Assembly (NCBI RefSeq): GCF_028993635.1
Contig: NZ_CP118631.1
Span: forward strand, 1,178,001 to 1,242,000
Length of the DNA: 64,000 nt
Reading direction: 5' to 3'
Source: Mucilaginibacter sp. SJ
GTDB taxonomy: Bacteria; Bacteroidota; Bacteroidia; Sphingobacteriales; Sphingobacteriaceae
Shown here: piece after piece, positions 20,330 to 59,721 of the stretch
How the letters are laid out: each line of letters begins with the position of its first letter
How positions within the stretch are numbered: the first letter of the stretch is position 1
Position numbers and translations under genes: made by a program
The notes under the pieces: generated by a model
What the model saw: the letters and a program-made list of their open reading frames with translations, nothing else
Told to the model about the DNA's origin: nothing
Databases searched by the model: none

Positions 20330-20429
20330 TACCAAAGTTATATCTAACTAATTATCAATACATTAAATCATTATATCAAAACTTTACTGTACGCTTATGT
20401 AACAGGATGCGTACGGTTATGATACAGTG
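20330..20429 (-). promoter_or_regulatory. Shared promoter architecture, copy 1 (ATPase 1-TolC)
   Basis: On the minus strand the order is: CACTGTATCA tail, palindromic box with half-sites at 20417-20410 (ACCGTACG read on minus) and 20393-20386 separated by 16 bases, then 49 bases, then TTTGGTA at 20336-20330. The start codon is 82 bases further on, more than in the other three copies. TAACTTTG (20340-20333) overlaps the TTTGGTA here and also fits a -7 element. Confidence 0.75.
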
Positions 20430-20449
20430 ATTTGAAGTCAATGGTCCAA

Positions 20450-20559
20450 AGTCGGGAGTTCAAAGTCTTTAATTGCAGAAGCCTTACATATTGGCTTAAT
20501 TGAACCAATAGTAAGGCATTTACTTAAGACTTTGTACTTAGAACTTACTGCTCCCGACT
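20450..20559. repeat. Nested inverted repeat after permease P1
   Basis: Four pairs of arms nest inside one another: AGTCGGGAG (20450-20458) with CTCCCGACT (20551-20559); AAAGTCTT (20462-20469) with AAGACTTT (20526-20533); GCCTTAC (20481-20487) with GTAAGGC (20511-20517); ATTGG (20490-20494) with CCAAT (20505-20509). In RNA this would be one long interrupted hairpin right after the P1 stop, and it may end or stabilise the P6-P1 transcript. Confidence 0.82.
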
Positions 20560-20561
20560 AA

Positions 20562-22958
20562 TCATTCGGAACGCAAGCTCTTAACCGGATTAGCAATTGC
20601 TGCCTTAATGGCCTGGAAGCTTACAGTAGCAAAAGCTATAACCAGTGATGTAAAACCAGCCATGCCAAATATCCACCAGCTAATATCAATGCGATAAGCA
20701 AAATCCTGCAGCCATTTATTCATGGCATAAAACGCTATCGGCCATGCTATAACGTTGGCAATGAGCACCAATTTTACAAAATGGCCCGAAAGCAGCAGTA
20801 ATATATTTTGTACCGATGCACCAAGCACCTTGCGTACCCCTATTTCCTTAACCCGTTTCTCGGCCGAATATGATGCCAATCCGAATAATCCCAAACAGGA
20901 TATAATGATGATCAACCCAGCTAAAATACTTACTACAGTGCTTACCTGATTGTCAACACTGTAAACTTCTTTAAAATGATCGTCAAGAAACTGGTATTCA
21001 AAGGGTATCCCCGGAAATTCCTTTTGCCAGGTTGATTGGATAAATGCAACAGCATCTTTAGCCCTGCCGCCGTTGACCTTAACCGACATTTGGTTGAACC
21101 CCTTACCGTTTACCAGGAACAGCGTTTCAATTTTATAATGCAGGGAATTGAAATTGAAATCTTTGGCTATTCCGGTAATCACACCCAACGAATCAAAACC
21201 AAACCTTTGCCCCAGTAATGATTCCATATTTTTTCCTTTATGATCTTTCAGCAGTTCCTTAGCCAGCGCTTCATTAATGATATACTGTTTCCAAACGGCC
21301 GAAGTATCGGTAGAAAAATTCTTTCCCATCAGCAGCTTGATCTTATACAGATCGAGGTAATTATTATCAACCACCAACAATGTTGACGTAAGCTGACGCA
21401 AAGGCGAATCGCCCAGTTTAAATGAGATCCCTGTTTGATCGAGATGACTGCCTAAAATATCCTGCGATGCGGTAACTCCCAGCACTATTGAATTGGAGAG
21501 TAATTCCTGCTTAAACAGATCATACTTATTTTGCGGAATCAAACCTAAGGGAACGTTAACAATCTGATCGCGGTTAAAACCGGGATCCTTTTTTTGCATA
21601 AACTTAAGCTGCCTGATAACCAAAACGGTAGCTACCATTAAAATCACAGCACTCGTAAACTGGCCAACAACCAAAATATTACGCAGCGGCACCTTATTGC
21701 CTCCTGCTGAAGTTAAAGCCCCTTTTAATACCTTGACCGGCTGAAATGACGACAGAAAGAGTGCAGGATATATACCGGATATCATGCCGACAAGCACTGT
21801 GCTTACTAACATCACTGCGATAAGCATTTTATTATCATGCAACGGCAAACTGATATCACGCTGGCTTAAACTATTGATAAAAGGAATAGCAAGGGTCACC
21901 AAAACACAGGCAAAAACTAAAGCTATCAGAGAAAGTAACACCGTTTCACCCAAAAATTGCATGGCCAGCTGAATACGCCCTGCCCCAATAGACTTACGTA
22001 CGCCAACCTCTTTTGCCCGCTCCGACGACCGCGCGGTTGAAAGGTTAATGAAATTAATACAGGCTATTACCAAAACAATGATCCCTATAACTGTAAACAG
22101 GTTGGTGATATGTTTATCAAATTTTTGATAATTGATATAGTCCAACCCTATATCGGCCGAGTTTGCGTGAACATCTTTCAGGGACAACAGGAAGAGCTCG
22201 TAATTTTTAGGACCATCTTTACCTTTATATTTTTGAAGATAGGCCGGGAACTTCTTTTCAAGTGCCGCCATATTAGTGCCCGGTGCCAATTCAAGATAAG
22301 TATTTAACCAGTTGCCGCCCCAATTGGTAAACATCCAGGGTTTATAAATACTGCTGAATGAAAATAAACAATCAAACTGTAGCTGTGAGTTTTTAGGCAC
22401 GTTGGCCAATATGCCGGTAACCGAATAAGTTATGGTATCCTGCCCGTAATTGGTCACGGTTTTACCTATCGGGTCGTCATTACCAAACATACGCTTGGCT
22501 GCATCTTCGGTTAATAAAACACTTCGCGGCTTTAGCAAAGCGGTCGCCCTGTCACCTCTTAATAGCTTGAAATCAAACATCTTCAAAAAAACCGAATCCA
22601 CAAAGAACACCTGCGGCATATACACGCGTTTAAGCCCGTTGTTGAGCGGAAATTTTTGCTGCCAGCGCACACGCGTGAAGTTTTTTATTTCCGGGAAATC
22701 GGCCTTAAGCGTCGGGCCCATAGGGAACATAGATAAGGCTACTTTTTGCGTGGCGCCCATTCCCTCAAACTTTTGCACCTCGTTTAAGCGATAGATATTT
22801 TTTGTATGCAGGTTATCAAAGCTTTTTTCATAATAAACAAAAAGCGTGATCACAATGCAGGCCGCCATACCCACAGCCAGCCCAAAAATGTTGATGGCCG
22901 AAAAAACCTTGCTTTTCCAGATATTCCGCCAGGCGATTTTAAAGTAATTTTTTATCAT
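20562..22958 (-). CDS. ABC permease P1 (FtsX/MacB type, two-halved)
   Basis: Inner-membrane permease of 798 residues, last of its group. It shows the plan shared by all 16: half one is TM1 (18-43), a MacB-like periplasmic domain, then TM2 (about 289-310), a coupling helix with KEVGVRK (about 314-320), TM3 and TM4, ending in SSFQPVKVLKG. Half two repeats this: TM5 (LVVGQFTSAVILM), a second periplasmic domain, TM6, the coupling helix KEIGVRKVLGAS (about 704), TM7 and TM8, ending ANPVKSLRSE. The resemblance of the two ends marks an internal duplication, so one chain could supply both halves of a MacB-like dimer. P1 does not fall clearly into the main subfamilies: before TM2 it has a divergent KDVHANSADIGLDY. 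Confidence 0.94.
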   Translation of the reverse strand: MIKNYFKIAWRNIWKSKVFSAINIFGLAVGMAACIVITLFVYYEKSFDNLHTKNIYRLNEVQKFEGMGATQKVALSMFPMGPTLKADFPEIKNFTRVRWQQKFPLNNGLKRVYMPQVFFVDSVFLKMFDFKLLRGDRATALLKPRSVLLTEDAAKRMFGNDDPIGKTVTNYGQDTITYSVTGILANVPKNSQLQFDCLFSFSSIYKPWMFTNWGGNWLNTYLELAPGTNMAALEKKFPAYLQKYKGKDGPKNYELFLLSLKDVHANSADIGLDYINYQKFDKHITNLFTVIGIIVLVIACINFINLSTARSSERAKEVGVRKSIGAGRIQLAMQFLGETVLLSLIALVFACVLVTLAIPFINSLSQRDISLPLHDNKMLIAVMLVSTVLVGMISGIYPALFLSSFQPVKVLKGALTSAGGNKVPLRNILVVGQFTSAVILMVATVLVIRQLKFMQKKDPGFNRDQIVNVPLGLIPQNKYDLFKQELLSNSIVLGVTASQDILGSHLDQTGISFKLGDSPLRQLTSTLLVVDNNYLDLYKIKLLMGKNFSTDTSAVWKQYIINEALAKELLKDHKGKNMESLLGQRFGFDSLGVITGIAKDFNFNSLHYKIETLFLVNGKGFNQMSVKVNGGRAKDAVAFIQSTWQKEFPGIPFEYQFLDDHFKEVYSVDNQVSTVVSILAGLIIIISCLGLFGLASYSAEKRVKEIGVRKVLGASVQNILLLLSGHFVKLVLIANVIAWPIAFYAMNKWLQDFAYRIDISWWIFGMAGFTSLVIAFATVSFQAIKAAIANPVKSLRSE

Positions 22959-22965
22959 CTCTTTT

Positions 22966-23071
22966 GTTCACTTGTTCATCGGTTCATTAGTTCATTGGGA
23001 CTTATAGCTTAGCATATATTACACCCGCCCCGCGTTCGCCTAATGAACCAATGAACAAGTGAACCAATGAA
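22966..23071. repeat. GTTCATT-word inverted repeat between P2 and P1
   Basis: A 25-base arm at 22966-22990, made of GTTCACTT, GTTCATCG and GTTCATTAG, is complementary to 23040-23064 at all but one position. The arm is itself a string of imperfect GTTCATT words, and two more words extend each side. A GC-rich loop (about 49 bases) lies between. Confidence 0.9.
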
Positions 23072-23075
23072 CTTT

Positions 23076-25442
23076 CTATTCGCTTCTTAAACTTTTAACC
23101 GGATTAGCTATAGCCGCTTTAATAGCCTGAAAGCTAATGGTTATCAACGTAATCACAATAGCCACTAAGGCCGATATAATAAATACATCGGGGCTAACCG
23201 TTACCCGGTAATCGTATTTTTGCAACCAACCCTGCAAAAAGTAAAAGGCTACCGGAGAGGCTATTACACAACTAATAAGCACCAGCAGCACAAAATCTTT
23301 CGACAGTAAAAACCATAGCTGGCTTACAGTTGCGCCTAATACCTTACGTACACCAATTTCTTTGGTGCGTTGCTCAGCGATGTATGCGGCCAGGCCAAAC
23401 AAACCAAGGCATGATATAAAAATAGCCAGTCCCGCAAAAATGCCCGATAATTTACCTACCAATACTTCCTGGCCAAACTTGCGGTTATAATCATCATCTA
23501 CAAAGCGATATGTAAATGGATACGCAGGACTATATTTTGAAAACACCTGCTCTATTTTATCAATAGCATCGTGCGGAATTACTTTAGGCGAAAGCCTGTA
23601 GATCATGTTTTGATGCGGATCATTATTATACAAAAACATGGTTGGATCGGCTTGTGCAAATGGCGATAGCATCAGCGCGTTTTTGACTACCCCAATTATC
23701 TTGCGTTGCTTACCTCCATATATTATTACCTGGCTTATCGGGTCGCCTTTAAGGCGCAGGCGCTTAACCGCTGCTTCATTGAAAATGATATTCAATGAAT
23801 CGGACACCACATTATTATAATCTCTCCCGGCAAGCATTTTCATGCCCACAGTCTTAAAATAATCATTAGCTACAGCTATTACGCCCATTTCAACGGTTTC
23901 ACCGGCAAATTTACCAGGCCATTGGTCAATGTTATTGTGCATGTTAATATCCGTAATGGTGCTTGATGCTGTGGAGATACTTTCAATCACACCGCTTTGC
24001 AATAATTCATTTTTAAAAGCGGAATAGTGCTTACCCAAATCTTCGTTGGCATTAGTGGCTATTAACCTATTAATATCGTATCCCGCCGGGCGGTTTTTGG
24101 CGTACTGAATCTGCCTGTAAATAACAGCTGTACTTATGATCAATGCTATTGAACAGCTAAATTGCATCACTACCAAAACTTTACGCGAATACGATGCCGA
24201 GCGGCCAACCTGAATTGTACCTTTTAACACCCTAACCGGATTAAATGACGAAAGATAAAACGCAGGGCGGCTACCGGCCACCAGGGCTGTAAGCAATACA
24301 CACCCTATGGCAATCAGCCAAAAAATTGCGCTGTTAAAGGGTATGGAAATAGTAGTACCGGTAAGCGAGTTAAACAGCCCGAGCGCTATTTGAACAAAAA
24401 GCATTGAGCATATAAAAGAGATCAGTGTGATCAGTGTAGATTCTGTCAAAAACTGGAATATTAGATGCTGACGTTGTGATCCGATAGCTTTACGGATGCC
24501 GACCTCGCGCGCGCGTTTTTCAGACCGGGCAGTTGTGAGATTGATGAAATTCACACAAGCTATCAGCAGTACCAGTACACCAACAATACTAAAGGTGCGT
24601 ACGTAATCAATAAACCCACCTACTGCAGCTCCATTTTTATAATCGGAAAAAAGGTGCCAATCGGTCATGGGTTGCATAATTACATCCGAGTTTTCGGCGT
24701 TGATATTTTTTTCGCCTTTTTCGATATGAAGGATCTTTGGGGCCAGTTGTGCGTACGTTACACCTGGTTTTAGCTTTGCAAATAGTTCGAAGCTATTGTT
24801 ACCAAAGCTATCGTGGGCGTCTTTCATGTAAGGCTGTTGCTCCATCAAACTGAATGGAATAACATATTTAAATTGAAGCGACGAATTCAATGGTACATCC
24901 TGAATCACGCCGGTAACTTTTAAATTGTAGTTATTATCAACCTTAACTACCTTATTGATCACATTCCCGGTGCCAAATAAAGCGAGAGCGGTAGCTTTGG
25001 TCAATACAATTGAATACGGATCATTCAAAGCGGTTGTACGGCTCCCCTGTAAAAAATTGTATTGAAAAATTTTCAGAAAATCGCTACCTGCCTGCACGCC
25101 ATCAATAGATAACTTCTTATCGCCTACCATTAACCCATGTGTGCCCCCCCAATCTGTGGGTGCTACATATTCTATTTCGGGCATAGTTTTCAACACATCT
25201 GCCAGTTTTAGCGATATTGAACTAAACGTCAAGGTTTCACCATTGCTGTTAAAATTACGGCGAACCTGGTATACCCTGTTGGCATCGGGCAAAAACCTGT
25301 CGTACGAGTACTCATTAGCAACCCAAAGCGCTATCATCAAGGCAACAGCCATCCCGGCCGCCAACCCCAAAACATTGATAGCTGTATAGGCTTTGTTGTT
25401 AGCGATGTTTCGCCAGGCTATTTTGATATAATTTCTAAGCAT
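23076..25442 (-). CDS. ABC permease P2 (subfamily A)
   Basis: A two-halved FtsX/MacB permease of 788 residues. The start at 25442 (MLRNYIKIAWRN) is chosen because this opening is conserved in all the paralogues; an in-frame ATG at 25523 would only add translated repeat DNA. Subfamily A mark: NGAAVGGFIDYVRTF ahead of TM2, then the coupling segment REVGIRKAIGSQR (about 312). Second coupling helix KEIGVRKVLGAT at about 694; C-terminus ANPVKSLRSE. It is visibly closest to P4: both share NEYSYDRFLP after TM1, KVLVVMQFSCS at TM5 and WLQKYDYR before TM8, although P3 of another subfamily lies between them. Confidence 0.94.
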   Translation of the reverse strand: MLRNYIKIAWRNIANNKAYTAINVLGLAAGMAVALMIALWVANEYSYDRFLPDANRVYQVRRNFNSNGETLTFSSISLKLADVLKTMPEIEYVAPTDWGGTHGLMVGDKKLSIDGVQAGSDFLKIFQYNFLQGSRTTALNDPYSIVLTKATALALFGTGNVINKVVKVDNNYNLKVTGVIQDVPLNSSLQFKYVIPFSLMEQQPYMKDAHDSFGNNSFELFAKLKPGVTYAQLAPKILHIEKGEKNINAENSDVIMQPMTDWHLFSDYKNGAAVGGFIDYVRTFSIVGVLVLLIACVNFINLTTARSEKRAREVGIRKAIGSQRQHLIFQFLTESTLITLISFICSMLFVQIALGLFNSLTGTTISIPFNSAIFWLIAIGCVLLTALVAGSRPAFYLSSFNPVRVLKGTIQVGRSASYSRKVLVVMQFSCSIALIISTAVIYRQIQYAKNRPAGYDINRLIATNANEDLGKHYSAFKNELLQSGVIESISTASSTITDINMHNNIDQWPGKFAGETVEMGVIAVANDYFKTVGMKMLAGRDYNNVVSDSLNIIFNEAAVKRLRLKGDPISQVIIYGGKQRKIIGVVKNALMLSPFAQADPTMFLYNNDPHQNMIYRLSPKVIPHDAIDKIEQVFSKYSPAYPFTYRFVDDDYNRKFGQEVLVGKLSGIFAGLAIFISCLGLFGLAAYIAEQRTKEIGVRKVLGATVSQLWFLLSKDFVLLVLISCVIASPVAFYFLQGWLQKYDYRVTVSPDVFIISALVAIVITLITISFQAIKAAIANPVKSLRSE

Positions 25443-25450
25443 CTCTTCTA

Positions 25451-25527
25451 TCATTAGGTCATTAATCATTGAGTCATTGGCCTCGCGAAAAAATGACTTA
25501 ATGACGCGAAGCAAATGACTCAATGAC
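25451..25527. repeat. GTCATT-word inverted repeat between P3 and P2
   Basis: CATTGAGTCATT and the GC-rich end at 25467-25487 are nearly complementary to 25505-25525 (CGCGAAGCAAATGACTC and on). A smaller hairpin of AATGACTTAATGACG type lies inside. All arms consist of AATGAC/GTCATT words. Confidence 0.8.
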
Positions 25528-25530
25528 TAT

Positions 25531-27909
25531 TTATTCAGAACGCAAACTCTTAACCGGATTGGCCAACGCAGCCATAGTAGCCCGATAGCCTACCGTGATC
25601 CAGGCTATTATTAGGCTTGACAGGATCGACATTACAAATATTTGTGGACCGATACTAATCCGGTATTGAAAATCTTTTAGGTAATTATGCATTGCCCACC
25701 AGGCCAGCGGAGAAGCTATTACAAATGCAACAAGCAACAATATGCTGAACTCCTTACCAAACAACCATAAGATACTGCTGATATTTGCACCCAATACCTT
25801 ACGAACCCCTATCTCCTTAGTTTTTCGTACAGCCATGAACGATACCAGGCCATACAAACCAAGACACCCTATAACAATTGCGATACCGGCAAACACTTCA
25901 ACCAGGGTTAATAATATTTTATCCATCTCATAGAAACGGGCAATGGTATCATCCAGAAACTGGTAAGAATATAATTCTTCGGGGAAAGTTTGGTTCCAGA
26001 TTTTATCAATATCCGCCAGTGTAGCTTTGGCATTACGCATATCTATCTTCACGGCAACGGTAGATAGTGACTGATAGTTAGGCATTACACATAATGGTGA
26101 AATCTCCGAATGGAAAGAGTAATTGTAAAAATCTTTCATTACGCCTACAATGGTACCTTTATAGTCGCGGCCATTAATTGCCATTTGTTTCCCTATTACA
26201 TCCTGCGGTTTAAGGTGCAGTTTATTAACGAAGGTTTCGTTCACCAAAAACTCTTTAACCGAGTCGCCTTTGAAGAAGTTTCTGCCGGCAATCAGTTTAA
26301 TGCCAAAAGTGGAAATGTAATTTTCGTCGGCCTGCTTGGTGTTGATGCTCCAATGCTCGTCTTCGGCGCGATTATCATATTGAATACCGGTATTACTATT
26401 TGAACGTGACGCCGGCGGGTTATAACAGTAAGATACATTTTCAACACCCTTAATTTCGCTGAGGCGATTACGCATAGTGCTCATTTTCATCTTATCGTTT
26501 TGAGGAAGCGGCACAAGCACTACGGCATTTTTATTAAAGCCAAGGTCGGCAGTTTGTGAATAATGTAATTGCGATACTACGATAATAGTACCGATGATAA
26601 GTACCTGCGATATAGTAAACTGGGTAACTACCAGTACCCTGCGTAACGAAAAACCGCCAACATCTTTTTGTGACAGTTTACTTTTAAGCGCTTTAATTGG
26701 CTGAAACCTCGCCAATACCAAACCAGGATATGAACCCGAAAGAAATACAACAACAATAGTAATAACAACTATAAAAGCGCTCAATTCGGCCCAGTTAAAG
26801 GTCATCCTTGCATGGAAGAGATTGTTTAATGGCGTCAGAGCTATCTCTGATAAACCAATAGCCACTCCAACAGCAATAATGCTGATGATAGCGGTTTCTG
26901 CAATAAACTGCCAGAATAATTGGAAAGGCTGGCTACCCAATACTTTACGGATACCCACCTCTTTTGAGCGGTTTAGCGCCTGGGCCGTAGCCAGGTTTAT
27001 AAAATTTACCGAGGCTGTAATGATCAGGAACACACCGATAAAGAACAGCGCCCATAAATAGCTTTTATCGGCATAACCACCAAGTTCACGGTCAAAGTGC
27101 ATTTCGGCAATAGGTTGTAATTTAAAGCGCCAAACCTGTAAATCCCTGCCGGTGTAATTCTTTTTAACCAATTGCAGCATGGCAGTTTCAACCTGTGCTT
27201 TGGTTACGCCCGGCTTCAACCTGGTAAAACCCTGACAACCGCTGTAAACACCGCCCCAGTTATTTTCACGGCCTTTACCTGCGTATGCTTCCATACTTGC
27301 ATACGAAATAAAGATCTGTTGCTTTTGGTCGGTGTTATTTGGCAAATCTTGTAGTACACCAGTTATAGTAACAGTTATGTTATTATCCAGCTTAAAAGTT
27401 TTGCCTATTGGGTTATCATTACCAAAATATTTTTGGGCCATTTTTTCGGTAACCAAGGCTTCATTCGGGTTAACAAGCATGGTTTTCTTATCACCTTTAA
27501 GCAATGGAAAATTCAGGATGTCGAAATACTCGGGCTCAACAAAGGCAACACCATCATCCTCACCAAATTTTTTCACTTCACTTCCCTTGGTAATCGTGAT
27601 CAGCGTTTTATTAAAGCTGATGTATCTCGCCGTTTTTTCGCTAAAAGCAAAGTCATTTCGATAACCCTTGGCCATCGGTTGCGGAATAGCGCCTACCCGA
27701 TCTACACCCTGATCGTGAAACTCGGTATAAAAACGGTAGATCCTGTCTTTATCCTTATGAAAGGTATCAAAGCTCAGGTGGTAAGTGATCAGCGTAAATA
27801 TTAGTACGCCGCAGGCTATACCCAAAGCCAAACCAATAACACTGATGGTTGCGTAAGCCTTGTTACGCACCAAATTTCGCCATGCAATTTTTATGTAGTT
27901 TTTGATCAT
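25531..27909 (-). CDS. ABC permease P3 (subfamily B)
   Basis: A two-halved FtsX/MacB permease of 792 residues, starting MIKNYIKIAWRNLVRNK. Subfamily B marks: YHLSFDTFHKD after TM1, AEMHFDRELGG ahead of TM2, and TAQALNRSKEVGIRKVLGSQ (about 316), where the TAR of the other groups reads TAQ. Half one ends LARFQPIKALKSK. Half two opens with VLVVTQFTISQVLIIGT and has KEIGVRKVLGAN at about 698. The C-terminus is ANPVKSLRSE. It sits 88 bases downstream of P2's start side and 114 bases after P4, and is flanked by two unrelated repeat types. Confidence 0.94.
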   Translation of the reverse strand: MIKNYIKIAWRNLVRNKAYATISVIGLALGIACGVLIFTLITYHLSFDTFHKDKDRIYRFYTEFHDQGVDRVGAIPQPMAKGYRNDFAFSEKTARYISFNKTLITITKGSEVKKFGEDDGVAFVEPEYFDILNFPLLKGDKKTMLVNPNEALVTEKMAQKYFGNDNPIGKTFKLDNNITVTITGVLQDLPNNTDQKQQIFISYASMEAYAGKGRENNWGGVYSGCQGFTRLKPGVTKAQVETAMLQLVKKNYTGRDLQVWRFKLQPIAEMHFDRELGGYADKSYLWALFFIGVFLIITASVNFINLATAQALNRSKEVGIRKVLGSQPFQLFWQFIAETAIISIIAVGVAIGLSEIALTPLNNLFHARMTFNWAELSAFIVVITIVVVFLSGSYPGLVLARFQPIKALKSKLSQKDVGGFSLRRVLVVTQFTISQVLIIGTIIVVSQLHYSQTADLGFNKNAVVLVPLPQNDKMKMSTMRNRLSEIKGVENVSYCYNPPASRSNSNTGIQYDNRAEDEHWSINTKQADENYISTFGIKLIAGRNFFKGDSVKEFLVNETFVNKLHLKPQDVIGKQMAINGRDYKGTIVGVMKDFYNYSFHSEISPLCVMPNYQSLSTVAVKIDMRNAKATLADIDKIWNQTFPEELYSYQFLDDTIARFYEMDKILLTLVEVFAGIAIVIGCLGLYGLVSFMAVRKTKEIGVRKVLGANISSILWLFGKEFSILLLVAFVIASPLAWWAMHNYLKDFQYRISIGPQIFVMSILSSLIIAWITVGYRATMAALANPVKSLRSE

Positions 27910-27922
27910 AAACCCCTCCTAA

Positions 27923-28012
27923 CCTCCCCAAAGGGGAGGAATTGTACTTGTGATATATTTAGTTATTAGTCATGTATTTTAATCTTCTTAAAGCCCTCTC
28001 CTTTGGAGAGGG
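27923..28012. repeat. Double C/G-run hairpin between P4 and P3
   Basis: Two perfect tight hairpins: CCTCCCC-AAA-GGGGAGG (27923-27939) and CCCTCTCC-TTT-GGAGAGGG (27994-28012). The outer flanks (AACCCCTCCTAACC and GGGTTTGGGTGAGG) are also roughly complementary. It differs in sequence from all neighbouring spacers but has a similar length and place. Confidence 0.85.
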
Positions 28013-28023
28013 TTTGGGTGAGG

Positions 28024-30411: not shown

Positions 30412-30417
30412 GATCAA

Positions 30418-30496
30418 AATCATTAAGTCATTGGATCATTAAGCCATTGCTTCCCGCGTTTAAATGATTTAATGATGCGAAGCAAATGACCTAATG
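30418..30496. repeat. GTCATT-word imperfect inverted repeat between P5 and P4
   Basis: CATTAAGTCATTGGATC on the left faces GCGAAGCAAATGACCTAATG on the right. Pairing is interrupted but both arms are chains of GTCATT or ATGATT words. The loop has the GCTTCCCGCG type also seen in the P3-P2 and P9-P8 spacers. Confidence 0.7.
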
Positions 30497-30500
30497 GAAT

Positions 30501-32861: not shown

Positions 32862-32870
32862 GGTTAGGTG

Positions 32871-32943
32871 TTCATTGGTTCACTTGTTCATTCGTTCATT
32901 GATACTTGTATAGTCCGTTAACTGCAAACTGCCACTGCCAACT
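32871..32943. repeat. Half-type word repeat between P6 and P5
   Basis: GTTCATTGGTTCACTTG-type words (32871-32905) are followed not by their complement but by a second word family, ACTGCAAACTGCCACTGCC (about 32920-32940), just before the P6 stop. The same two-part arrangement recurs between P11 and P10, P13 and P12, P14 and P13, and P15 and P14. Confidence 0.7.
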
Positions 32944-32944
32944 A

Positions 32945-35362: not shown

Positions 35363-35398
35363 ATCGTACAGTAATTTTTGATTACAATGTAAAACATA

Positions 35399-35497
35399 TA
35401 CCAAAACGAAAACAAACTGAATATCAATTACTTATATTAACCACCAATAATATACTGTTCGTAAGTGTAACACCTTGTGTACGGTATTGATACAGTG
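35399..35497 (-). promoter_or_regulatory. Shared promoter architecture, copy 2 (P6-P1 unit)
   Basis: Half-sites ACCGTACA (minus strand, 35485-35478) and CGAACAGT (35461-35454) are separated by 16 bases that include GTGTTAC. CACTGTATCA lies just upstream. After 48 bases comes TTTGGTA (35405-35399), and the P6 ATG follows 36 bases later. Confidence 0.8.
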
Positions 35498-38286: not shown

Positions 38287-38293
38287 TAGCTCC

Positions 38294-43260: not shown

Positions 43261-43266
43261 GATATT

Positions 43267-43374: not shown

Positions 43375-43375
43375 A

Positions 43376-45793: not shown

Positions 45794-45799
45794 GATTTA

Positions 45800-45861
45800 G
45801 TTCATTAGTTCACTTGTTCATTAGTTATTAGTCCCTGGCGATGGTCTGCCACTGTCGACTG
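45800..45861. repeat. Half-type word repeat between P11 and P10
   Basis: GTTCATTAGTTCACTTG words come first, then TCTGCCACTGTCGACTGC immediately before the P11 stop. There is no complementary arm. At 68 bases this is the shortest permease-permease gap. Confidence 0.65.
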
Positions 45862-48282: not shown

Positions 48283-48319
48283 GAGTGTACGATTAACCAC
48301 AATACAGGTTTAAAAGCCA

Positions 48320-48418
48320 TACCAATAAAACAAACACCTAAATATCAATTGGTTATAATTTATTTTTAATCAAAACTGTACGAAGACGTAACACCATGTG
48401 TTCGGTTATGATACACTC
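48320..48418 (-). promoter_or_regulatory. Shared promoter architecture, copy 3 (P11-P7 unit)
   Basis: Half-sites ACCGAACA (minus strand, 48406-48399) and CGTACAGT (48382-48375) are separated by 16 bases including GTGTTACG. The flanking AGTGTATCA lies upstream. After 48 bases comes ATTGGTA (48326-48320), and the P11 ATG follows 37 bases later. Confidence 0.8.
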
Positions 48419-49523: not shown

Positions 49524-49630
49524 AATAATGATCTTTGGTTTATATATACAAGACCAGGCGTTTAGCAAATACGTTGCATGGTGCTGAAAATAAATTCAGA
49601 CTACCTAATAATGACAGCACATCATAAAAA

Positions 49631-49650
49631 AGCCCGTGGGGACACGGGCT
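49631..49650 (-). terminator. Terminator of the P15-P12 unit
   Basis: AGCCCGTG (49631-49638) pairs with CACGGGCT (49643-49650) around a GGGA loop. On the minus strand TTTTTT follows. It lies 63 bases after the P12 stop. Confidence 0.88.
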
Positions 49651-49668
49651 CGGGGTATATTCTATTTC

Positions 49669-49712
49669 TTCAACTGCTACTGCAAACTGCCACTGCTATC
49701 TGCAAACTGATC
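49669..49712. repeat. ACTGC-word direct repeats after P12
   Basis: Short direct repeats of CAACTGC, TACTGC, AAACTGCC and ACTGCTATCTGCAAACTG run up to the P12 stop. There is no inverted partner. It is the same word family as in the half-type spacers. Confidence 0.65.
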
Positions 49713-52088: not shown

Positions 52089-52190
52089 TAGTTCACTTGT
52101 TCATTAGTTCATTGGTACTTATCGCTTACTTTTATCTGCCTGCTGGCCTGTATCTGCTACTTCAAACTGCTGCTGCTATCTGTCAACTAA
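52089..52190. repeat. Half-type word repeat between P13 and P12
   Basis: GTTCACTTGTTCATTAG words at the P12 side are followed by CTGCCTGCTGGCC, CTGCTACTTC and AAACTGCTGCTGC words towards the P13 stop. There is no complementary arm. Confidence 0.65.
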
Positions 52191-52192
52191 TT

Positions 52193-54616
52193 TTATTCAT
52201 TTTTCAAACTCCTCACCGGGTTGGCCAGTGCCGCCTTGATGGATTGAAAGCTGATGGTTACAAAAGCGATCAACACGGCCAAAACCGCAGCCAATACTAC
52301 CACCCACCATTGTATGTTTTGCCTGTACGCAAAGCCCTGCAACCATTGCTGCATGGCGACCCAGGCAACCGGAATGGCTATTACTATTGCTATCATTACC
52401 AGTTTGATAAAATCTTTTGACAGCATACCTACTATAGCGCCTACATTAGCGCCAAGTACTTTACGGATGCCTATCTCCTTAGTGCGCTGTTCGGCCGCAT
52501 ATGCAGCAAGGCCAAACAAACCTAAACAGGCTATCACAATTGTTAAACTTGTAAATATGATGAATATGGTACCCATCCGCTGTTCCGCACGGTACGATGA
52601 ATCAAAATCGTCATCCATAAACGAATATTCAAACTCCTTACCCGGTTTTATAGATTTCCATTTGTCGCTGATCATGGCCATAAGTGCGGTGATATTAGCG
52701 GTATTTACTTTTACACTTAAGGCGCCGGTATCCTGCCCGTACATTAATATCACCGGGCTTACATTATTACGCAGCGAAGCGAAATTAAAATCCTTAATAA
52801 CACCTACTATATGATATTCTTTAAACGTTTTGGCCATATTGTCCATAGGCAAAAACATGGATTTGTTAAGCGGGTCACGTACGCCCATCAGTTTCGCCGC
52901 TGTTTCATTAATGATCATGGCCGCCGAATCGGTAGGCATCTGGTTTGAGAAATTACGGCCTTTGGTTAGTTTTATGCCGAGGGTTGGCAGATAGTTATCG
53001 TCAACTACCCAGGTTTGTGCAAGCACTGCTTTTTTAGGGTCGAGCCCGCGTTCCTGGAAAACGCTGCTGCTGTTCCTGTAATCAGAAGTTGGCAAAAAGC
53101 CTGTCATGGTTACGCCCATTACGCCTGGCAATTGCTTTACTTCATCTCTTAACACCTTGCTCTTGTCGCCGAGGTCATACACACCATGAATCACCAATAC
53201 CTGGCTGCGGTTATAACCAAGATCTTTATTCTGAATATATTTAAGCTGATTATAGATCACCAGTGTACCAATGATGAGCACTATCGATATAAAAAACTGG
53301 AACACCACCAATGAGCTCCTTAACATTCCGCCCTTAAAGCCAGAGGAAAGCTTGCCTTTTAAAACATCAATTGGCTGAAATGCCGAAAGAAAAAACGCGG
53401 GATATGAGCCAGCCAGGAAGCCAATCACCAAAACTATTACCAGCAAAGCAGGAATCAGCCAAACCAATGAGCCCATATTAAGCTCCATGGTTTTACCCGC
53501 TATATTATTGAATACCGGCAGCAGAAAATAAGCCATCAGCATGGCTATTACTGTAGCAATAAACGTTACCATGATAGACTCAGACAGGAACTGGGCAATA
53601 AGCGACTGACGCCTTGAACCAAGTACCTTACGAACCCCTACCTCCCGGGCCCGGTTTGCAGAACGGGCGGTTGAAAGGTTCATGAAGTTTACACAGGCTA
53701 TCAGTAAGATAAAAATAGCAACCGCTCCAAAAATGTACACGTACTGAATGTTCCCGTTATGATCAAGCTCCGACACAAGATTTGATTTGAGGTGGATATC
53801 CTTCAATGGCATAAGACTCAGCTGGTATTTGTTGCCGGCTCCTTCAAACGAATCAAAAGTAAGATGTAAGATACTCTGCAATTGCGGACCCGCATATTTG
53901 TGCATTAATGCAGGAAACTTGGCTTCAAACTTTTTGGCATCCACACCAGGTTTTAGTAATACATAGGTATTGAAATTATTGCTGAACCATGCCCCATCTT
54001 TGCTTTCCGCGTTTGACGCCATCGACAGGAAAAAATCGTAATGAAAATGCGATTGCCTGGGCAGGTCTTTAATTACACCGGTAACCTTATAAAGCAGCTT
54101 TTCATCAAACGTAAAAGTTTTACCTACAACCTGCGTAGTATTAAAATAACGTTTAGCTGTACTTTCAGTAATGACAACGGTATTAGGTTCAACAAGCGCC
54201 TTCTTAGGATCGCCTGCTACCATTGGCAGGGTGAATACATCAAACAAGGTGGAATCGGCCAGCACCATTCGGTTTTCATGAATAGTTTGATTGCCTTTTT
54301 TTACATTATAACCTCCGCGCATCAAAAAACGGCAGGCACGCTCAACCTCAGGGTAGTCATTTTGAAAGGCGGCACTTAACGGAGCAGGCGCACAGGCATA
54401 ACTTTGATCGATACCGCCAAATTTAATCTGCATATTGGCGCGATAGATCCTGTCGGCCTTAACATTGAACTTGTCATAGCTCAGCTCATCTACCACATAA
54501 AATACGATGAGCAAACACGTAGCCAGCCCAAGGGCCAAACCAAACACATTAATTGTGGTGAAACCCCCATTTTTTTTCAATGTGCGAAAAGCAGTTTTAA
54601 GATAATTTCTGATCAT
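52193..54616 (-). CDS. ABC permease P13 (subfamily C)
   Basis: A two-halved FtsX/MacB permease of 807 residues, starting MIRNYLKTAFRTLKKNGG. It is the obvious sister of P14: both share KTAFRTL, LGLALGLATCL at TM1 and DELSYDKFN, and KDIHLKSNLVSELDHNGNI matches P14's TDIHLHSNRTGELGSNSSA before TM2. The coupling helix is STARSANRAREVGVRKVLGSRR (about 324). Half one ends SAFQPIDVLKG; half two opens SLVVFQFFISIVLIIGT. AEQRTKEIGIRKVLGAN is at about 713. The C-terminus is ANPVRSLKNE. A tandem duplication is the simplest origin. Confidence 0.94.
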   Translation of the reverse strand: MIRNYLKTAFRTLKKNGGFTTINVFGLALGLATCLLIVFYVVDELSYDKFNVKADRIYRANMQIKFGGIDQSYACAPAPLSAAFQNDYPEVERACRFLMRGGYNVKKGNQTIHENRMVLADSTLFDVFTLPMVAGDPKKALVEPNTVVITESTAKRYFNTTQVVGKTFTFDEKLLYKVTGVIKDLPRQSHFHYDFFLSMASNAESKDGAWFSNNFNTYVLLKPGVDAKKFEAKFPALMHKYAGPQLQSILHLTFDSFEGAGNKYQLSLMPLKDIHLKSNLVSELDHNGNIQYVYIFGAVAIFILLIACVNFMNLSTARSANRAREVGVRKVLGSRRQSLIAQFLSESIMVTFIATVIAMLMAYFLLPVFNNIAGKTMELNMGSLVWLIPALLVIVLVIGFLAGSYPAFFLSAFQPIDVLKGKLSSGFKGGMLRSSLVVFQFFISIVLIIGTLVIYNQLKYIQNKDLGYNRSQVLVIHGVYDLGDKSKVLRDEVKQLPGVMGVTMTGFLPTSDYRNSSSVFQERGLDPKKAVLAQTWVVDDNYLPTLGIKLTKGRNFSNQMPTDSAAMIINETAAKLMGVRDPLNKSMFLPMDNMAKTFKEYHIVGVIKDFNFASLRNNVSPVILMYGQDTGALSVKVNTANITALMAMISDKWKSIKPGKEFEYSFMDDDFDSSYRAEQRMGTIFIIFTSLTIVIACLGLFGLAAYAAEQRTKEIGIRKVLGANVGAIVGMLSKDFIKLVMIAIVIAIPVAWVAMQQWLQGFAYRQNIQWWVVVLAAVLAVLIAFVTISFQSIKAALANPVRSLKNE

Positions 54617-54619
54617 TAT

Positions 54620-54696
54620 ATTAAGTTCATTGGTTCAATTGTTCATTAGTTCATTGGTATCAAGCTGTATAGCTGCTTACTGCCACTGCAAACTGC
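54620..54696. repeat. Half-type word repeat between P14 and P13
   Basis: GTTCATTGGTTCAATTG and GTTCATTAGTTCATTGG, then TCAAGCTGTATAGC, then CTGCCACTGCAAACTGCC up to the P14 stop. It is nearly identical along its whole length to the spacer at 57120-57193. Confidence 0.8.
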
Positions 54697-57117
54697 CTAC
54701 TCGTTTTTAAGGCTATTAACCGGGTTTGCCAATGCTGCTTTTATAGATTGGAAACTTACTGTAGCCACAGCTATTATTATAGCTACTACGCCTGCCAGCG
54801 CCAGCACCCACCATTGTATACTGATGCGGTAAGCGAAATCCTGCAGCCATTTGTTCATTAAATACCAGGCTAAAGGGGTTGTAATGGCTATGGAGATCAA
54901 TACCAGCTTTATAAAATCTTTGGATAAGGTATTCACTATGGCAGATACACTTGCACCGAGTACTTTACGGATCCCGATTTCTTTGGTGCGTTGTTCTGCA
55001 GCATAAGCGGCTAAGCCAAACAAGCCAAGGCAGGCAATGGAAATAGCCAGCACCGTAAATATGATGGATATGGTGCCGGTACGCTGCTCAGCACGATAAT
55101 TAGCATCAAAATCCTGATCCATAAAAGAATAGCTAAACTGGCTTTGGGTCATGCCCTGCCATTTGCTTTTTATCTGATCGACGAGAGCAGGTAAATTAGT
55201 TGTATTTACCCTGATACTCAGGTTTCCACTGTCTTCGTCCATTAAAAAAATCATTGGGCTGATATTTTCCCTCAGCGAGTTGAAATTAAAATCTTTAACC
55301 ACACCTATGATGTGATAAGCTTTTACATGATCACGGTTGCCATCCATATTACGGTACAGGATTTTATTGACCGGATTGGTAAAGCCTAAAAATTTAGCTG
55401 CTGTTTCATTGATCACTAATCCGGTGGAATCCGTTGACATACTTGCCGAAAAATCGCGCCCGGCAGAGATCTTCATACCCAGGGTGCTGATATAGTCCGC
55501 GTCTACCCGCCAGCTTTGCGGAAACAAAGCAGTTTTTTGATCGGCTGCCGCTTCTTTATAAAAAATGGACGTTCCCCTGTTTTTACCGGTTGGCAAATAA
55601 CCCGTCAAAGTAGCATTAACTACACCTTGGATTTGCTTTACCTCATTTTTAAAGGTTTTGGCATGGCTGCCCAATTCAAATGCATTATTGATAACAAGTA
55701 CCTGATTGCGGTTATAACCCAGGTTTTTGGTTTGAATATAATTGAGCTGGTTATAAATAACGATGGTACCAATAATGAGGAATATTGAAATAGAAAACTG
55801 GAATACAACCAGTACACTCCTAAGCCAGCTGCCTTTGAAACCGCCGGCAAGTTTACCGCTAAGCACATTAATTGGCTGAAATGCCGAAAGAAAAAAAGCA
55901 GGATATGATCCGGCAGCAAAACCTACCACCAGTACAATCAATAGTAAAGCAGGCAGCAACCAGGTTAAGGTTTGCGCGCCAACAACCAACTCCTTGCCCG
56001 ATACCTGATTAAACAGCGGCAATAAAAGTAATACAGTAAAAAACGCTATAACTGCCGCTGCCAAAGTCACCAATACCGATTCGGTTAAAAACTGGGCTAT
56101 TAAATATTTACGCGGGGAACCTAAAACCTTGCGTACACCAACCTCCCTGGCCCTGCTGGCCGAACGAGCTGTTGAAAGGTTCATAAAGTTGATGCCTGCT
56201 ATAAGTAATATGAATATGGCAATGGCCGAAAATATATAAACATACTGCGCTGAGCTATTGCTGCCCAACTCACCGGTACGGTTTGAGTGCAAATGGATAT
56301 CGGTTAAAGGAGTGAGGTTAAGCCTGAAATAACTGCCGCTTTTTTCAAAATCGGCAATATTGACGTGCAAGGCCGTTTGCATTTGCCCTTCGCTGTATTT
56401 TTTCAGCAAAGCAGCCAGTTTTTTCTCAAATAACTTATAATCTGTACCTGGTTTCAAAACCACATAGGTATTGTAGTCGCTTCTTAACCATTCGGGAGAT
56501 TTGCTATCAGGCCAGCTTATCATCGACATAAAAAAATCGAAATGAAAGTGCGATTGCTTCGGTAAATCCTTTATCACTCCTGTAATCTTTAACAATTGAT
56601 TGTTATCGATGGAGAGTGTTTTGCCTACAACGTTGGTACTGTTAAAGTACTTTTGGGCTGTAGTTTCGGTAATCACCACGGTGTTAGGCTCTTTCAAAGC
56701 CGTAGCCGGATTACCATTAATCATGGGTAGGGTAAACACGTTAAAAACCGATGGGTCGGCAAAAACGGTACCGTACTCAAGAATACTTTCGTTACCTTTT
56801 TTTACGTGGAAACCTCCTGCTGCCTTAAGCCGGGTTACTTCCTCCACCTCAGGGAGATCCGTTTTTAATGCCTGAGCCAACGGCGGCATCGCAACGGCAT
56901 AAAGTACATTATTGTTGCCAAATTTAAGATCTTCATTAACCCGGTACGTGCGATCAGCTTTCTCATTAAACCGATCATAACTCAACTCATCGGCTACGTA
57001 TAGCACAATCATAAGGCAGGTGGCCAAGCCAAGGGCCAGTCCCAATATATTTATAACCGTAAACCCCACGTTTTTGCGCAGGGTACGGAAAGCTGTTTTT
57101 AAGTAATTTTTAAACAT
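54697..57117 (-). CDS. ABC permease P14 (subfamily C)
   Basis: A two-halved FtsX/MacB permease of 806 residues, starting MFKNYLKTAFRTLRKNVG. It is sister to P13 in TM1, in the coupling helix STARSASRAREVGVRKVLGSPR (about 325) and in the SGKLAGGFKGSWLR linker after SAFQPINVLSG. Before TM2 it reads TDIHLHSNRTGELGSNSSAQ, and TM2 ends IAGINFMN where paralogues have IACINF. Half two opens VLVVFQFSISIFLIIGT; AEQRTKEIGIRKVLGAS is at about 713; the C-terminus is ANPVNSLKNE. The spacers on its two sides are near copies of each other, marking it as part of a duplicated gene-plus-spacer unit. Confidence 0.94.
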   Translation of the reverse strand: MFKNYLKTAFRTLRKNVGFTVINILGLALGLATCLMIVLYVADELSYDRFNEKADRTYRVNEDLKFGNNNVLYAVAMPPLAQALKTDLPEVEEVTRLKAAGGFHVKKGNESILEYGTVFADPSVFNVFTLPMINGNPATALKEPNTVVITETTAQKYFNSTNVVGKTLSIDNNQLLKITGVIKDLPKQSHFHFDFFMSMISWPDSKSPEWLRSDYNTYVVLKPGTDYKLFEKKLAALLKKYSEGQMQTALHVNIADFEKSGSYFRLNLTPLTDIHLHSNRTGELGSNSSAQYVYIFSAIAIFILLIAGINFMNLSTARSASRAREVGVRKVLGSPRKYLIAQFLTESVLVTLAAAVIAFFTVLLLLPLFNQVSGKELVVGAQTLTWLLPALLLIVLVVGFAAGSYPAFFLSAFQPINVLSGKLAGGFKGSWLRSVLVVFQFSISIFLIIGTIVIYNQLNYIQTKNLGYNRNQVLVINNAFELGSHAKTFKNEVKQIQGVVNATLTGYLPTGKNRGTSIFYKEAAADQKTALFPQSWRVDADYISTLGMKISAGRDFSASMSTDSTGLVINETAAKFLGFTNPVNKILYRNMDGNRDHVKAYHIIGVVKDFNFNSLRENISPMIFLMDEDSGNLSIRVNTTNLPALVDQIKSKWQGMTQSQFSYSFMDQDFDANYRAEQRTGTISIIFTVLAISIACLGLFGLAAYAAEQRTKEIGIRKVLGASVSAIVNTLSKDFIKLVLISIAITTPLAWYLMNKWLQDFAYRISIQWWVLALAGVVAIIIAVATVSFQSIKAALANPVNSLKNE

Positions 57118-57119
57118 GG

Positions 57120-57193
57120 TTCATTGGTTCAATTGTTCATTAGTTCATTGGTTTTATCAAGCTGTATAACCGCTTACAGCCACTGCAAACTGC
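57120..57193. repeat. Half-type word repeat between P15 and P14
   Basis: Same order and nearly the same bases as 54620-54696: GTTCATTGGTTCAATTG words, TCAAGCTGTATAAC, then CCACTGCAAACTGCC, running into the P15 stop. Confidence 0.8.
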
Positions 57194-59584
57194 CTACTCG
57201 TTTTTAAGGCTTTTAGCCGGATTAGCATTTGCTGCCCTTACTGATTGCACACTTACTGTTACAAAAGCGATAATCACGGAGAGGATACCTGCTACCGCGA
57301 AGATCCACCAGTTAATATCAACCCGGTAAGCAAAACTTTGTAACCATTTGCTCATGCCATACCAGGCCAGCGGCGAGGCAATTAATGTGGATATCACCAC
57401 CAGTTTCATCAAATCTTTTGACAACAGGGTAACTATGGAGGTTACACTTGCACCCAAAACTTTCCTGATGCCGATTTCTTTTACCCTTTGTTCGGCAGTA
57501 AAGGTTACCAGGCCGAAAAGCCCAAGACAAGCAATACTAATTGCCAACACGGTGAATATGAACAGGATGCTGCCTTGCTTTTGCTCTGACCGATATTGTT
57601 TGGCAAAATTCTGATCAAGAAAATGAAACTCTGCCTTGTTTTCAATATCAAACCTGCCGTAAACATTACTGATATAATTGAGCGTGGACGGGATATTATT
57701 TTTGCCTATGCGCACGTACATATTATCCTCATCATTAACAGTAGCAGGCAGGTGTAGTACCATAGATGATACTTTATGCTGCAGCGAATAGGTATTGAAG
57801 TCCTTAACTACGCCGATGATCTTTTGTGTAATTACATTTCCATTTTCATCCACCCCGGTACGTACCGATTTCCCGACAGCATCTTTCCATCCCATTTCAT
57901 TCACAAGCGTTTGATTAACGATGATGGATTCTTTCTGATCAGTCGCCATCGAGGTTGAAAAATTCCGTCCTTTAGCCAGCCTGATTTGTAAGGTTGGTAT
58001 AAAATCTTCATCAACAACCAGGCTCTCCACCACCTTTGAATCAGCGTTGCTTTTACCATCAGCACCGATATTGAATTTCACGGTGCCAATATCGTTATTG
58101 CCTATCGGGTTACCCGCTATACCCACAGCCTCAACGGCAGGGTTTTGCAACAGCTGACTTTTAATAGCTGCTATTTTAGTACGGGCTGATTTATCATGAA
58201 TATGAAAAGTAAGGGTTTGCGCCTTGTTAAAGCCGAGGTCTTTGTTCATTACATAATGTAGCTGCCGGTAAATAATGCACGAACCGGCTATCATCACAAT
58301 GGTAATCACAAACTGAAACACCACTAATACCTTTCTGAAAATTAAAGTAGCAGCCTGGCTGCCCATTTGCCCTTTCATAGCAGTAATGGTTTGAAAACCC
58401 GAAAGGAACAAGGCCGGGTATAAGCCACTCAAAATACCCGTAAGCAAAGCAAACAGCGTAAATACGATAACCGTTTTACCAATACCGAATTGAAACAGAA
58501 TCAAATTCTTGCCTGATAGCTGGTTAAAATAAGGTAGTAAAAACTGTACCATCACCGCTGCCACCAGGGTAGCAACGCCGGTAAGCAATACCGATTCGGC
58601 AAAGAACATGGTTATTAGCTGTTTTTTGCTTGATCCGATCACCTTGCGTACGCCAATCTCTTTGATTCTTACCGATGAACGTGCGGTAGTTAGATTTACG
58701 TAATTGATAACCGCGATTGCCAGGATTAGCAGGGCTACTACACCAAACACATAGATATAGGTAATGTTACCAACACTCCCAAGCTCATAATCAAGGTTTG
58801 AATGCAGGTGGATGGAAGTAAGCGGCTGCAGTTCCATTGTAAATTGCATTGGGCCAAGCGTACCTTTTATATATTTATTGAAGAAAGCATCCGAGCTTGC
58901 CTCTATCTTTTTATAATCGTCCGGATTTTTGAGCAGTAAATAGGTGTAAATACCCGCATTGCCCCATTTATCAATATAACCATCAGGAAAAGAGCGCAGA
59001 GCTTCAAAACTGAACTGGGAATTTATCGGTACATCATTTATTATGGCGGTGACTGTATTAGGATTATTTTCGATAAGTACCGTTTTATCCAAAGCGTCGG
59101 CGGTGTTGCCAAACAATTTTTCGGCCAGTGTTTTGGTAAGTACAATGCTGTTAGGTTTACTTAAGGCAGAGGCAGCATCGCCGGATAAAAAGTGATGAGT
59201 AAAGATATTAAAAAAGCCCTTATCGGTAAAAAGCATGGCGCCTTCATTAATTTGCTTTTCACCATAGCTTATTTTACCACCGCCTTCAGCATCAATGCGG
59301 ATAGCATCTTCCACTTCGGGATAGTCGTTTTTTAAAGCGGGGGCGTATGGGGCCGATGTAACTGCAAGGTTAAACCTGCCGCCGTTCCATGCCCCATGTT
59401 GTACAACCCGGAAAACCCTGTCGGCCTTTTCATTGTATCGGTCATAGCTCCATTCGTCGATAATATACAAGGCGATGAGCCAAAAGGCAGCAACGCCAAT
59501 AGCCAACCCTAAAATATTGATAAATGAAAATACTTTATGTTTGAGGAGGTTTCTCCAGGCTATTTTAATATAGTTGCGCAACAT
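57194..59584 (-). CDS. ABC permease P15 (subfamily C), first gene of its group
   Basis: A two-halved FtsX/MacB permease of 796 residues from ATG 59584, which lies 37 bases after the TTGGTA element. It starts MLRNYIKIAWRNLLKHK. Subfamily C marks: DEWSYDRYNEK after TM1, TSIHLHSNLDYELGSVGNIT before TM2, and TTARSSVRIKEIGVRKVIGSSK (about 309). Half one ends SGFQTITAMKG, which lacks the usual Pro. Half two opens VLVVFQFVITIVMIAGS, and AEQRVKEIGIRKVLGAS is at about 702. The C-terminus is ANPAKSLKNE, preceded by the unusual VRAANAN where others have IKAALAN. It leads P15-P12. Confidence 0.94.
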   Translation of the reverse strand: MLRNYIKIAWRNLLKHKVFSFINILGLAIGVAAFWLIALYIIDEWSYDRYNEKADRVFRVVQHGAWNGGRFNLAVTSAPYAPALKNDYPEVEDAIRIDAEGGGKISYGEKQINEGAMLFTDKGFFNIFTHHFLSGDAASALSKPNSIVLTKTLAEKLFGNTADALDKTVLIENNPNTVTAIINDVPINSQFSFEALRSFPDGYIDKWGNAGIYTYLLLKNPDDYKKIEASSDAFFNKYIKGTLGPMQFTMELQPLTSIHLHSNLDYELGSVGNITYIYVFGVVALLILAIAVINYVNLTTARSSVRIKEIGVRKVIGSSKKQLITMFFAESVLLTGVATLVAAVMVQFLLPYFNQLSGKNLILFQFGIGKTVIVFTLFALLTGILSGLYPALFLSGFQTITAMKGQMGSQAATLIFRKVLVVFQFVITIVMIAGSCIIYRQLHYVMNKDLGFNKAQTLTFHIHDKSARTKIAAIKSQLLQNPAVEAVGIAGNPIGNNDIGTVKFNIGADGKSNADSKVVESLVVDEDFIPTLQIRLAKGRNFSTSMATDQKESIIVNQTLVNEMGWKDAVGKSVRTGVDENGNVITQKIIGVVKDFNTYSLQHKVSSMVLHLPATVNDEDNMYVRIGKNNIPSTLNYISNVYGRFDIENKAEFHFLDQNFAKQYRSEQKQGSILFIFTVLAISIACLGLFGLVTFTAEQRVKEIGIRKVLGASVTSIVTLLSKDLMKLVVISTLIASPLAWYGMSKWLQSFAYRVDINWWIFAVAGILSVIIAFVTVSVQSVRAANANPAKSLKNE

Positions 59585-59621
59585 CGGTAAATGGTTTATA
59601 CCACTAAAATATTAAAACCCG

Positions 59622-59721
59622 TACCAAATATTCAATTAATTAAAAATCAGATATTTATATAAAAAACACCAATTAAAACCGTACGATAATGAAACACATG
59701 TAGTACGGATGTGAACGATTG
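59622..59721 (-). promoter_or_regulatory. Shared promoter architecture, copy 4 (P15-P12 unit)
   Basis: Half-sites TCCGTACT (minus strand, 59709-59702) and CGTACGGT (59685-59678) are separated by 16 bases including GTGTTTC. The flanking CACTGTATCA of the other copies is not conserved here. After 49 bases comes TTTGGTA (59628-59622), and the P15 ATG follows 37 bases later. Confidence 0.78.

Follow-up and report, generated by a model that had tools for sequence, protein, structure and literature searches.

Promoters that depend on sigma-54 (RpoN) follow a textbook design that combines an enhancer, an IHF site and a bacterial enhancer-binding protein (bEBP), as in systems of the nif, ntr, zra and norV type. 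The IHF consensus is quoted as WATCARNNNNTTR in PMC7962754, the abstract of which also states that IHF commonly acts between enhancer and promoter. For Bacteroidia, passages of a 2025 study (PMC12316311) report on statistical grounds that COG0577, an ABC antimicrobial-peptide-type permease group, is enriched for predicted sigma-54 promoters. Here we analyze a window of 64,000 nucleotides from the 6.82 Mb genome of Mucilaginibacter sp. SJ (C1:1178001-1242000), which carries an exporter array of about 46 kb. The drug-exporter-like operons of this array each have the same three-part DNA switch in front, of a kind operated by a phosphorylated activator together with sigma-54 RNA polymerase, and the cluster is probably turned on together. 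The repeated architecture is best explained as a sigma-54 promoter module read by the activator encoded beside the array, a reading to which we assign a probability of roughly 0.92.

The array comprises 16 permeases of the MacB_PCD-FtsX sequence families, two ATPases, one adaptor and one TolC-like channel; the three permeases and two ATPases that were tested score under the curated ADOP, DarB and DarD cut-offs. Five operons, with inferred borders, account for its genes: ATPase 1-TolC (unit A), P6-P1 (unit B), P11-P7 (unit C), P15-P12 with a toastrack gene (unit D) and adaptor-ATPase 2-P16 (unit E). An earlier, sequence-only reading of the window had noted, ahead of the first four units, a palindromic box of the form ACYGTWCG-N16-NGTWCGGW at a constant distance from TTGGTAY. 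The box form is present at 20386-20417 (site A), 35454-35485 (site B), 48375-48406 (site C) and 59678-59709 (site D), and TTGGTAY, which is RTACCAA on the forward strand, at 20329-20335, 35398-35404, 48319-48325 and 59621-59627, reading TTGGTAT at sites A to C and TTGGTAC at site D. Because the genes all run leftward, each site reads on the minus strand in the order box, TTGGTAY, gene, and each occupies, as claimed, the intergenic stretch that precedes its unit (headed by ATPase 1-TolC, P6, P11 and P15). The distances between the two parts, given as 48, 48, 49 and 49 bases, are 50, 49, 49 and 50 when measured; their constancy to within one base stands.

The degenerate pattern of box plus TTGGTAY occurs five times in 78 kb (the window and 14 kb to its right) and is absent from the reversed sequence. 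The fifth site (site E; C1:1242790-1242902), 0.9 kb past the right end of the window and ahead of the adaptor gene, has a -24 element that reads TGGCAT. The sequence-only reading had pointed to regulators encoded to the right of the window, and an NtrC-type two-component activator and a kinase do lie there, with this promoter copy between the adaptor gene and the divergent activator gene. That reading had missed the sigma-54 class of the promoters, an IHF-type element, the direct repeats described below, and a fifth and a sixth member of the set.

A better description of the box is a pair of direct repeats, TGTWWCA-N4-CGWAC, spaced by 22 bp, which would form an enhancer for an NtrC-type activator. 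The dyad behind the earlier description is present in the letters; a single palindrome was set aside as the poorer description, since the repeat reading also accounts for a conserved first repeat. This left repeat lies mostly outside the search pattern and is still conserved, with an identity of 0.52 over columns 3-13 and of 0.70 among the five own sites. At site A the putative enhancer (upstream activating sequence; 20386..20429, minus strand) reads CTGTATCATAACCGTAC-N5-CTGTTACATAAGCGTAC, a direct repeat with a period of 22 bp. Its counterparts, each with two direct repeats on the same strand, are at 35454..35497 (site B), 48375..48418 (site C) and 59678..59721 (site D), the first repeat of site D being the weakest of the five.

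A strict form of the box, CGWACN6TGTWWCRN4CGWAC, was derived from the five own sites and used to follow the element beyond the array. The earlier reading had named many genome copies away from promoters as the outcome that would count against it; the strict box occurs six times in the genome, each time before an exporter gene, namely at the five source sites and at C1:421336, an unlinked position 151 bases before another ADOP permease. Since the module stands before all five array operons and this unlinked permease, these genes probably constitute one regulon. In a survey of 61 Mucilaginibacter genomes, the strict box gave 158 matches (sum of the table) in 49 genomes, and the reversed pattern gave none in any of the 61. 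A looser form, GTWCGN{17,19}GTWCGGW, was discarded as not specific because it was commoner in the reversed control (23 matches) than in the genome (12, of which five are sites A-E).

Across the genus the box keeps both its place before exporter genes and its distance from the promoter. Forty of the 158 box regions, chosen by eye and consisting mainly of unlinked matches plus some array ones, were fetched, and in 38 of them the first open frame after the box matches a window protein: 31 permeases (including L212, which is divided between two frames), five ATPase 1-TolC pairs, one adaptor and one toastrack protein. The box thus leads, on its own, to array-type genes, and substrates and inducing signal should be approachable through one regulator. 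Although the box was searched for without the promoter, GGYR follows 52-56 bases downstream of its end in all 45 sites (40 fetched and five own), and the full TGGYAY lies 52-55 bases past it in 34 of the 40. The distance from box end to GG is 54-56 bases in 43 of 45 sites, which would place the enhancer at a fixed face. The boxes of L195 (G064) and L203 (G067) precede non-exporter frames of 359 aa and 160 aa; at L203 a TGGTAT follows after 52 bases, and in some species the regulon may therefore extend further.

TTGGTAY is the predicted -24 element of a sigma-54 promoter. In an alignment of 38 sites anchored on its GG, the -24 columns have a pairwise identity of 0.77, partly as a result of the anchoring, and the -12 columns one of 0.65. 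TT is found at +9/+10 in 36 sites and a purine at GG-N10 in 37; G occupies this position in 16 sites and GC is read in seven, all of them away from the activator locus. Judged by these letters, TGGYAY, TT and purine together resemble the -24/-12 layout of sigma-54 with a weakened -12. A single rpoN gene is present in the genome (PF04552, E 7.5e-56; TIGR02395 over its cut-off), and its product ends in ARRTVAKYRE, which we take to be the RpoN box, followed by 13 residues.

The -12 regions, all on the minus strand, are TTGAT at 20320..20324 (site A), TTTAC at 35389..35393 (site B), TTTAA at 48310..48314 (site C) and TTTAA at 59612..59616 (site D). From the GG position, the predicted starts are near 20308, with a leader of 61 bases to ATPase 1; 35377, with 15 bases to the ATG at 35362; 48298, with 16 bases to the ATG at 48282; and 59600, with 16 bases to the ATG at 59584. 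The mechanical start of the P6 open reading frame (TTG, 35404) lies inside the promoter, and that of P11 (GTG) is at 48300; both are upstream of the predicted transcription starts, and the likely translation starts are the ATG codons at 35362 and 48282.

A third element, between the box and TTGGTAY, matches the IHF consensus WATCARNNNNTTR on both strands. It is symmetric, YAAN4YTGATWNTYARN4TTR, spans -32 to -8 relative to the GG as YAANNNNYTGATWNTYARNNNNTTR, and is located at 20341..20365, 35410..35434, 48331..48355 and 59633..59657 (minus strand) in sites A to D. At fixed offsets, the consensus is matched with no or one mismatch in 31 of 38 sites on the reverse strand and in 23 on the forward strand; mean mismatches are 0.92 (reverse, -32) and 1.37 (forward, -20) against 2.9-7.1 at other offsets. 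The columns of the element have a pairwise identity of 0.65 in the same alignment. The genome search (E 0.001 or better) gave one HU/IHF-family gene (C1:3438404-3438673), found by PF00216 and again by PF18291, and the closest NCBIfam model for its product is IHF-beta, with a score below the cut-off. With a single such gene the gene content does not provide a heterodimeric IHF, and the element is therefore named IHF-type, not an IHF site.

The activator gene (C1:1243277-1244635, plus strand) starts 0.4 kb beyond the fifth site and is divergent from unit E. Its 452-aa product has a REC-AAA-Fis organization (PF00072, E 8.7e-21; PF00158, E 2.3e-66; PF02954 [HTH_8], E 2.9e-14). The overlapping kinase gene (C1:1244625-1245971, plus strand), 1.7 kb beyond the fifth site, encodes a histidine kinase of 448 aa whose best models are AtoS, PnpS and ZraS, all below cut-off. 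Orthologs of the activator (L029:2277-3635), which has a GA[FY]TDA loop, define 80 orthologous loci, mostly from named Mucilaginibacter and the remainder from Bacteroidetes or Sphingobacteriaceae bins. Walker A (GENGTGKD) and Walker B (GTLFLDEI) are kept in 80 of 80. A GAFTDA loop also occurs in a second activator of this genome (L010), itself in an ABC exporter operon.

Linkage and co-occurrence connect this activator to the box. The adaptor-side promoter is retained in 74 of the 80 loci, as TGGCAT in 65 and TGGCAC in nine, 80 or 81 bases from the start of the box; the degenerate pair gave three matches in total in the reversed control of these loci, and two forward matches (L124, L125) are stray. 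An ortholog is present in 53 of the 61 genomes, and the strict box occurs in 48 of these 53 as opposed to one of the eight others (Fisher 1.3e-5, ignoring kinship). The sequence-only reading had concluded that the repeated architecture implies one regulator co-expressing the channel and the permease groups. Co-expression of the exporter units by one regulator is supported as a prediction, and 'strongly suggests' is the better wording.

The promoter core extends beyond this regulon. A full-site sequence model recovered its six training sites and nine further places in the genome at E < 1e-4, the E-values being rough. Five of the nine precede ADOP permeases, one precedes the adaptor gene of an operon in which another activator is encoded, and three precede frames of 105 aa, 451 aa and, by eye, an extracytoplasmic function (ECF) sigma factor-like protein. 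The last of these (G000:C1:4950215, L267) matches model positions 29-108 and may point to a connection with another regulon. When the IHF-sigma-54 core is modelled alone, matches are also seen before genes whose upstream boxes are unrelated, including the operon just mentioned that encodes another activator (C1:1735624) and a gene 3 kb from another activator (C1:647582). The core is therefore associated with a wider range of sigma-54 activators, and the box is tied to the present regulon. At C1:1599710 (L275, L292) the core precedes an operon that by eye is RND efflux-like and has its own upstream inverted repeat, TATCGTGA..TCACGATA.

Five further ADOP operons (C1:2877918, 4113909, 2313185, 169253 and 5352317) share the core but have an upstream box of a variant form that by eye is CCGNAC..TGTNCG..CGNAC-like, and are unlinked to the array activator. 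The variant box is carried by the single-permease operons L232-L234, L236 and L237; in the same genome, no such promoter was seen at the ADOP gene L235, and those at L239 and L240 are weak. Two genomes from outside the genus, G037 and G050, were inspected by eye. In L242 and L245, both from G037, the core lies next to activator genes and has a different upstream box; of the two, L245 alone passed the matrix scan. L248 has TGGCACG but a poor bend block, L243 and L246 have a bend block but no clear -24, and neither feature was seen by eye in L244 or L247.

These data bear on other explanations of the repeated sites. TTGGTA might be part of an ordinary Bacteroidota primary-sigma promoter (consensus -33 TTG / -7 TAnnTTTG) and the box the site of a conventional activator or repressor. 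Site A does read TAACTTTGG, with an exact TAnnTTTG, and has TTGAT blocks upstream; however, TAnnTTTG overlaps the GG in only two of 38 sites (site A and its ortholog L223), TT at +9/+10 and the purine at GG-N10 are conserved, and 74 of 80 adaptor sites carry TGGCAT or TGGCAC. We reject this explanation as very improbable. Still harder to credit is that the likeness reflects recent duplication, with operons copied together with their upstream DNA, which would make the constancy uninformative on function. The permeases are paralogs and the array grew by duplication, but pairwise identity in the spacers of the 38 sites is 0.35, against 0.34 expected by chance from composition, while that of the IHF-type and -12 columns is 0.65, and the module is common to unlinked sites and to sites ahead of ATPase-TolC and adaptor genes. 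Recent copying, which would have left spacers as well as motifs alike, does not account for spacers at chance identity, and their combination with conserved motifs points to old, diverged sites held by selection.

The two remaining alternatives accept sigma-54 promoters or leave them untouched. The sigma-54 activator domain is matched 16 times in the genome, with 11 strong matches and one beside the array, and the repeats could be targets of a strong activator other than the adjacent one. The boxes can be unlinked, and the five variant-box ADOP operons share the core without linkage to the array activator. Against this, the promoter copy is divergent from the activator gene and within 0.9 kb of it in 74 of 80 loci, box and ortholog co-occur as given above, and upstream boxes near other activators look different by eye; a reader other than the adjacent activator is, in our estimation, distinctly unlikely. 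An objection can also be raised to the assignment of the middle element, which may be the site of a further regulator and not an IHF-type bend site; its symmetry favors this, as the classical E. coli IHF site is not symmetric. Yet on each strand the element matches WATCARNNNNTTR, as quoted in PMC7962754, at a single offset; it is also found upstream of genes whose own upstream boxes are unrelated, and it separates enhancer from promoter, a position at which IHF commonly acts according to the abstract of that paper. We consider a further regulator unlikely, at about one chance in four.

Several observations nevertheless weigh against a sigma-54 module read by the adjacent activator. At the promoter, the TGGYAY columns served as anchor, so that their conservation is partly by construction; the GC of the -12 element is degenerate, sites A-D reading AT, AC, AA and AA there, and the G of the fifth site is one base off register. 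The E-values of the full-site and core models are rough and come without a shuffled control, and two of the 40 fetched boxes (L195, L203) precede unrelated genes. In the activator, the sigma-54 contact loop is GAFTDA in 42 and GAYTDA in 38 of the 80 orthologs, and GAFTGA in none; a passage of PMC2941729 describes a NorR variant with the corresponding change, G266D, that keeps transcription activity and escapes repression, and the GA[FY]TDA loop thus does not exclude activator function. In six of 80 loci no standard site lies within 900 bases of the adaptor side: L097 carries a variant, the flank of L098 extends for only 638 bases, a pair is located 5.4-5.6 kb away in L157, L160 and L163, and L167 has none. 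Kinship among the genomes makes the Fisher value of 1.3e-5 optimistic, five of 53 activator-bearing genomes are without the strict box, and one of the eight genomes without the activator (G070, 63% complete) has two boxes.

With the sigma-54 module as the preferred explanation, the following mechanism can be proposed. A signal would reach the histidine kinase, which would phosphorylate the REC domain of the adjacent REC-AAA+-Fis activator. Activator dimers may then bind the two direct repeats, which share one face of the DNA some 53 to 96 bases before the GG, and form an AAA+ ring. Bending by the single HU/IHF-family protein identified in this genome, at the symmetric WATCAR-type site that separates enhancer and promoter, would carry the ring to the sigma-54 polymerase positioned on TGGYAY-N4-TTKR, and ATP hydrolysis would open the promoter. 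A more specific and tentative proposal, which we hold at somewhat below even odds, has two joint parts: in this Bacteroidota branch a single-gene, homodimeric HU/IHF protein might make the bend on a fully symmetric double WATCAR site, in contrast to the heterodimeric, asymmetric proteobacterial bend, and the array might be kept tightly off by promoters whose -24 (C to T) and -12 (GC to AA) are weakened, firing only with tandem enhancer and bend together.

The array genes in the window are all on the minus strand. In unit A, ATPase 1 (19570..20247), a MacB/LolD/DarD-like ABC ATPase, is the first gene and is followed by the TolC-like outer-membrane channel (18126..19637, open reading frame as listed); the two frames overlap, and the true start of the TolC-like protein may therefore be further in. 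Unit B (20562..35362) holds the six ADOP-type permeases P6 to P1, beginning at the ATG of P6 at 35362, unit C (35709..48282) the five ADOP-type permeases P11 to P7, and unit D (48486..59584) the four ADOP-type permeases P15 to P12 and the toastrack (DUF4097) gene. The part of unit E inside the window (59862..64000) contains permease P16, ATPase 2 and the 3' part of the adaptor gene. A remnant of a 17th permease whose body is gone can be read by eye at 62330-62500, between P16 and ATPase 2; what is left is NPVKSLRSE-stop from the C-terminus and MFKNYPKTA-stop from the N-terminus.

The analysis identifies a likely switch for an exporter array of 16 permeases, defines for a Bacteroidota sigma-54 activator a regulon that is open to testing, together with an enhancer sequence, and suggests how sigma-54 promoters may be bent in a bacterium with one HU/IHF-family gene. 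Literature searches, at the level of listings, returned no paper on the array, activator or enhancer and none relevant for Mucilaginibacter combined with sigma-54; the main text of PMC3162934 has no word beginning with 'bacteroid'. The general design is already known, and what appears to be new is a sigma-54/bEBP regulon with a degenerate -12, a symmetric bend site and a single HU/IHF-family gene.

Like classical sigma-54 promoters, those of the array have GG at -24, TT before -12, an enhancer about 80-120 bases before the predicted start, a bend site between, and an NtrC-type activator encoded beside a target. Unlike them, they often have TGGTAY at -24, a degenerate GC at -12 and a symmetric bend site, and the same tight spacing is repeated in five operons of one locus. 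The passages of PMC12316311 cited above describe no enhancer, activator, bend site or array, unlike the present locus. The AtoSC and ZraSR systems are similar in that the kinase is nearest to the AtoS, PnpS and ZraS models, although below cut-off, and the activator is REC-AAA-Fis; they differ in that the putative targets here are ABC exporter operons and the loop is GA[FY]TDA. As in MacB, the darobactin exporter (DarBCD) and ADOP systems, an ATPase, an adaptor, MacB_PCD-FtsX permeases and TolC are combined, but here sixteen permeases, two ATPases, one adaptor and one channel are brought together in one putative regulon.

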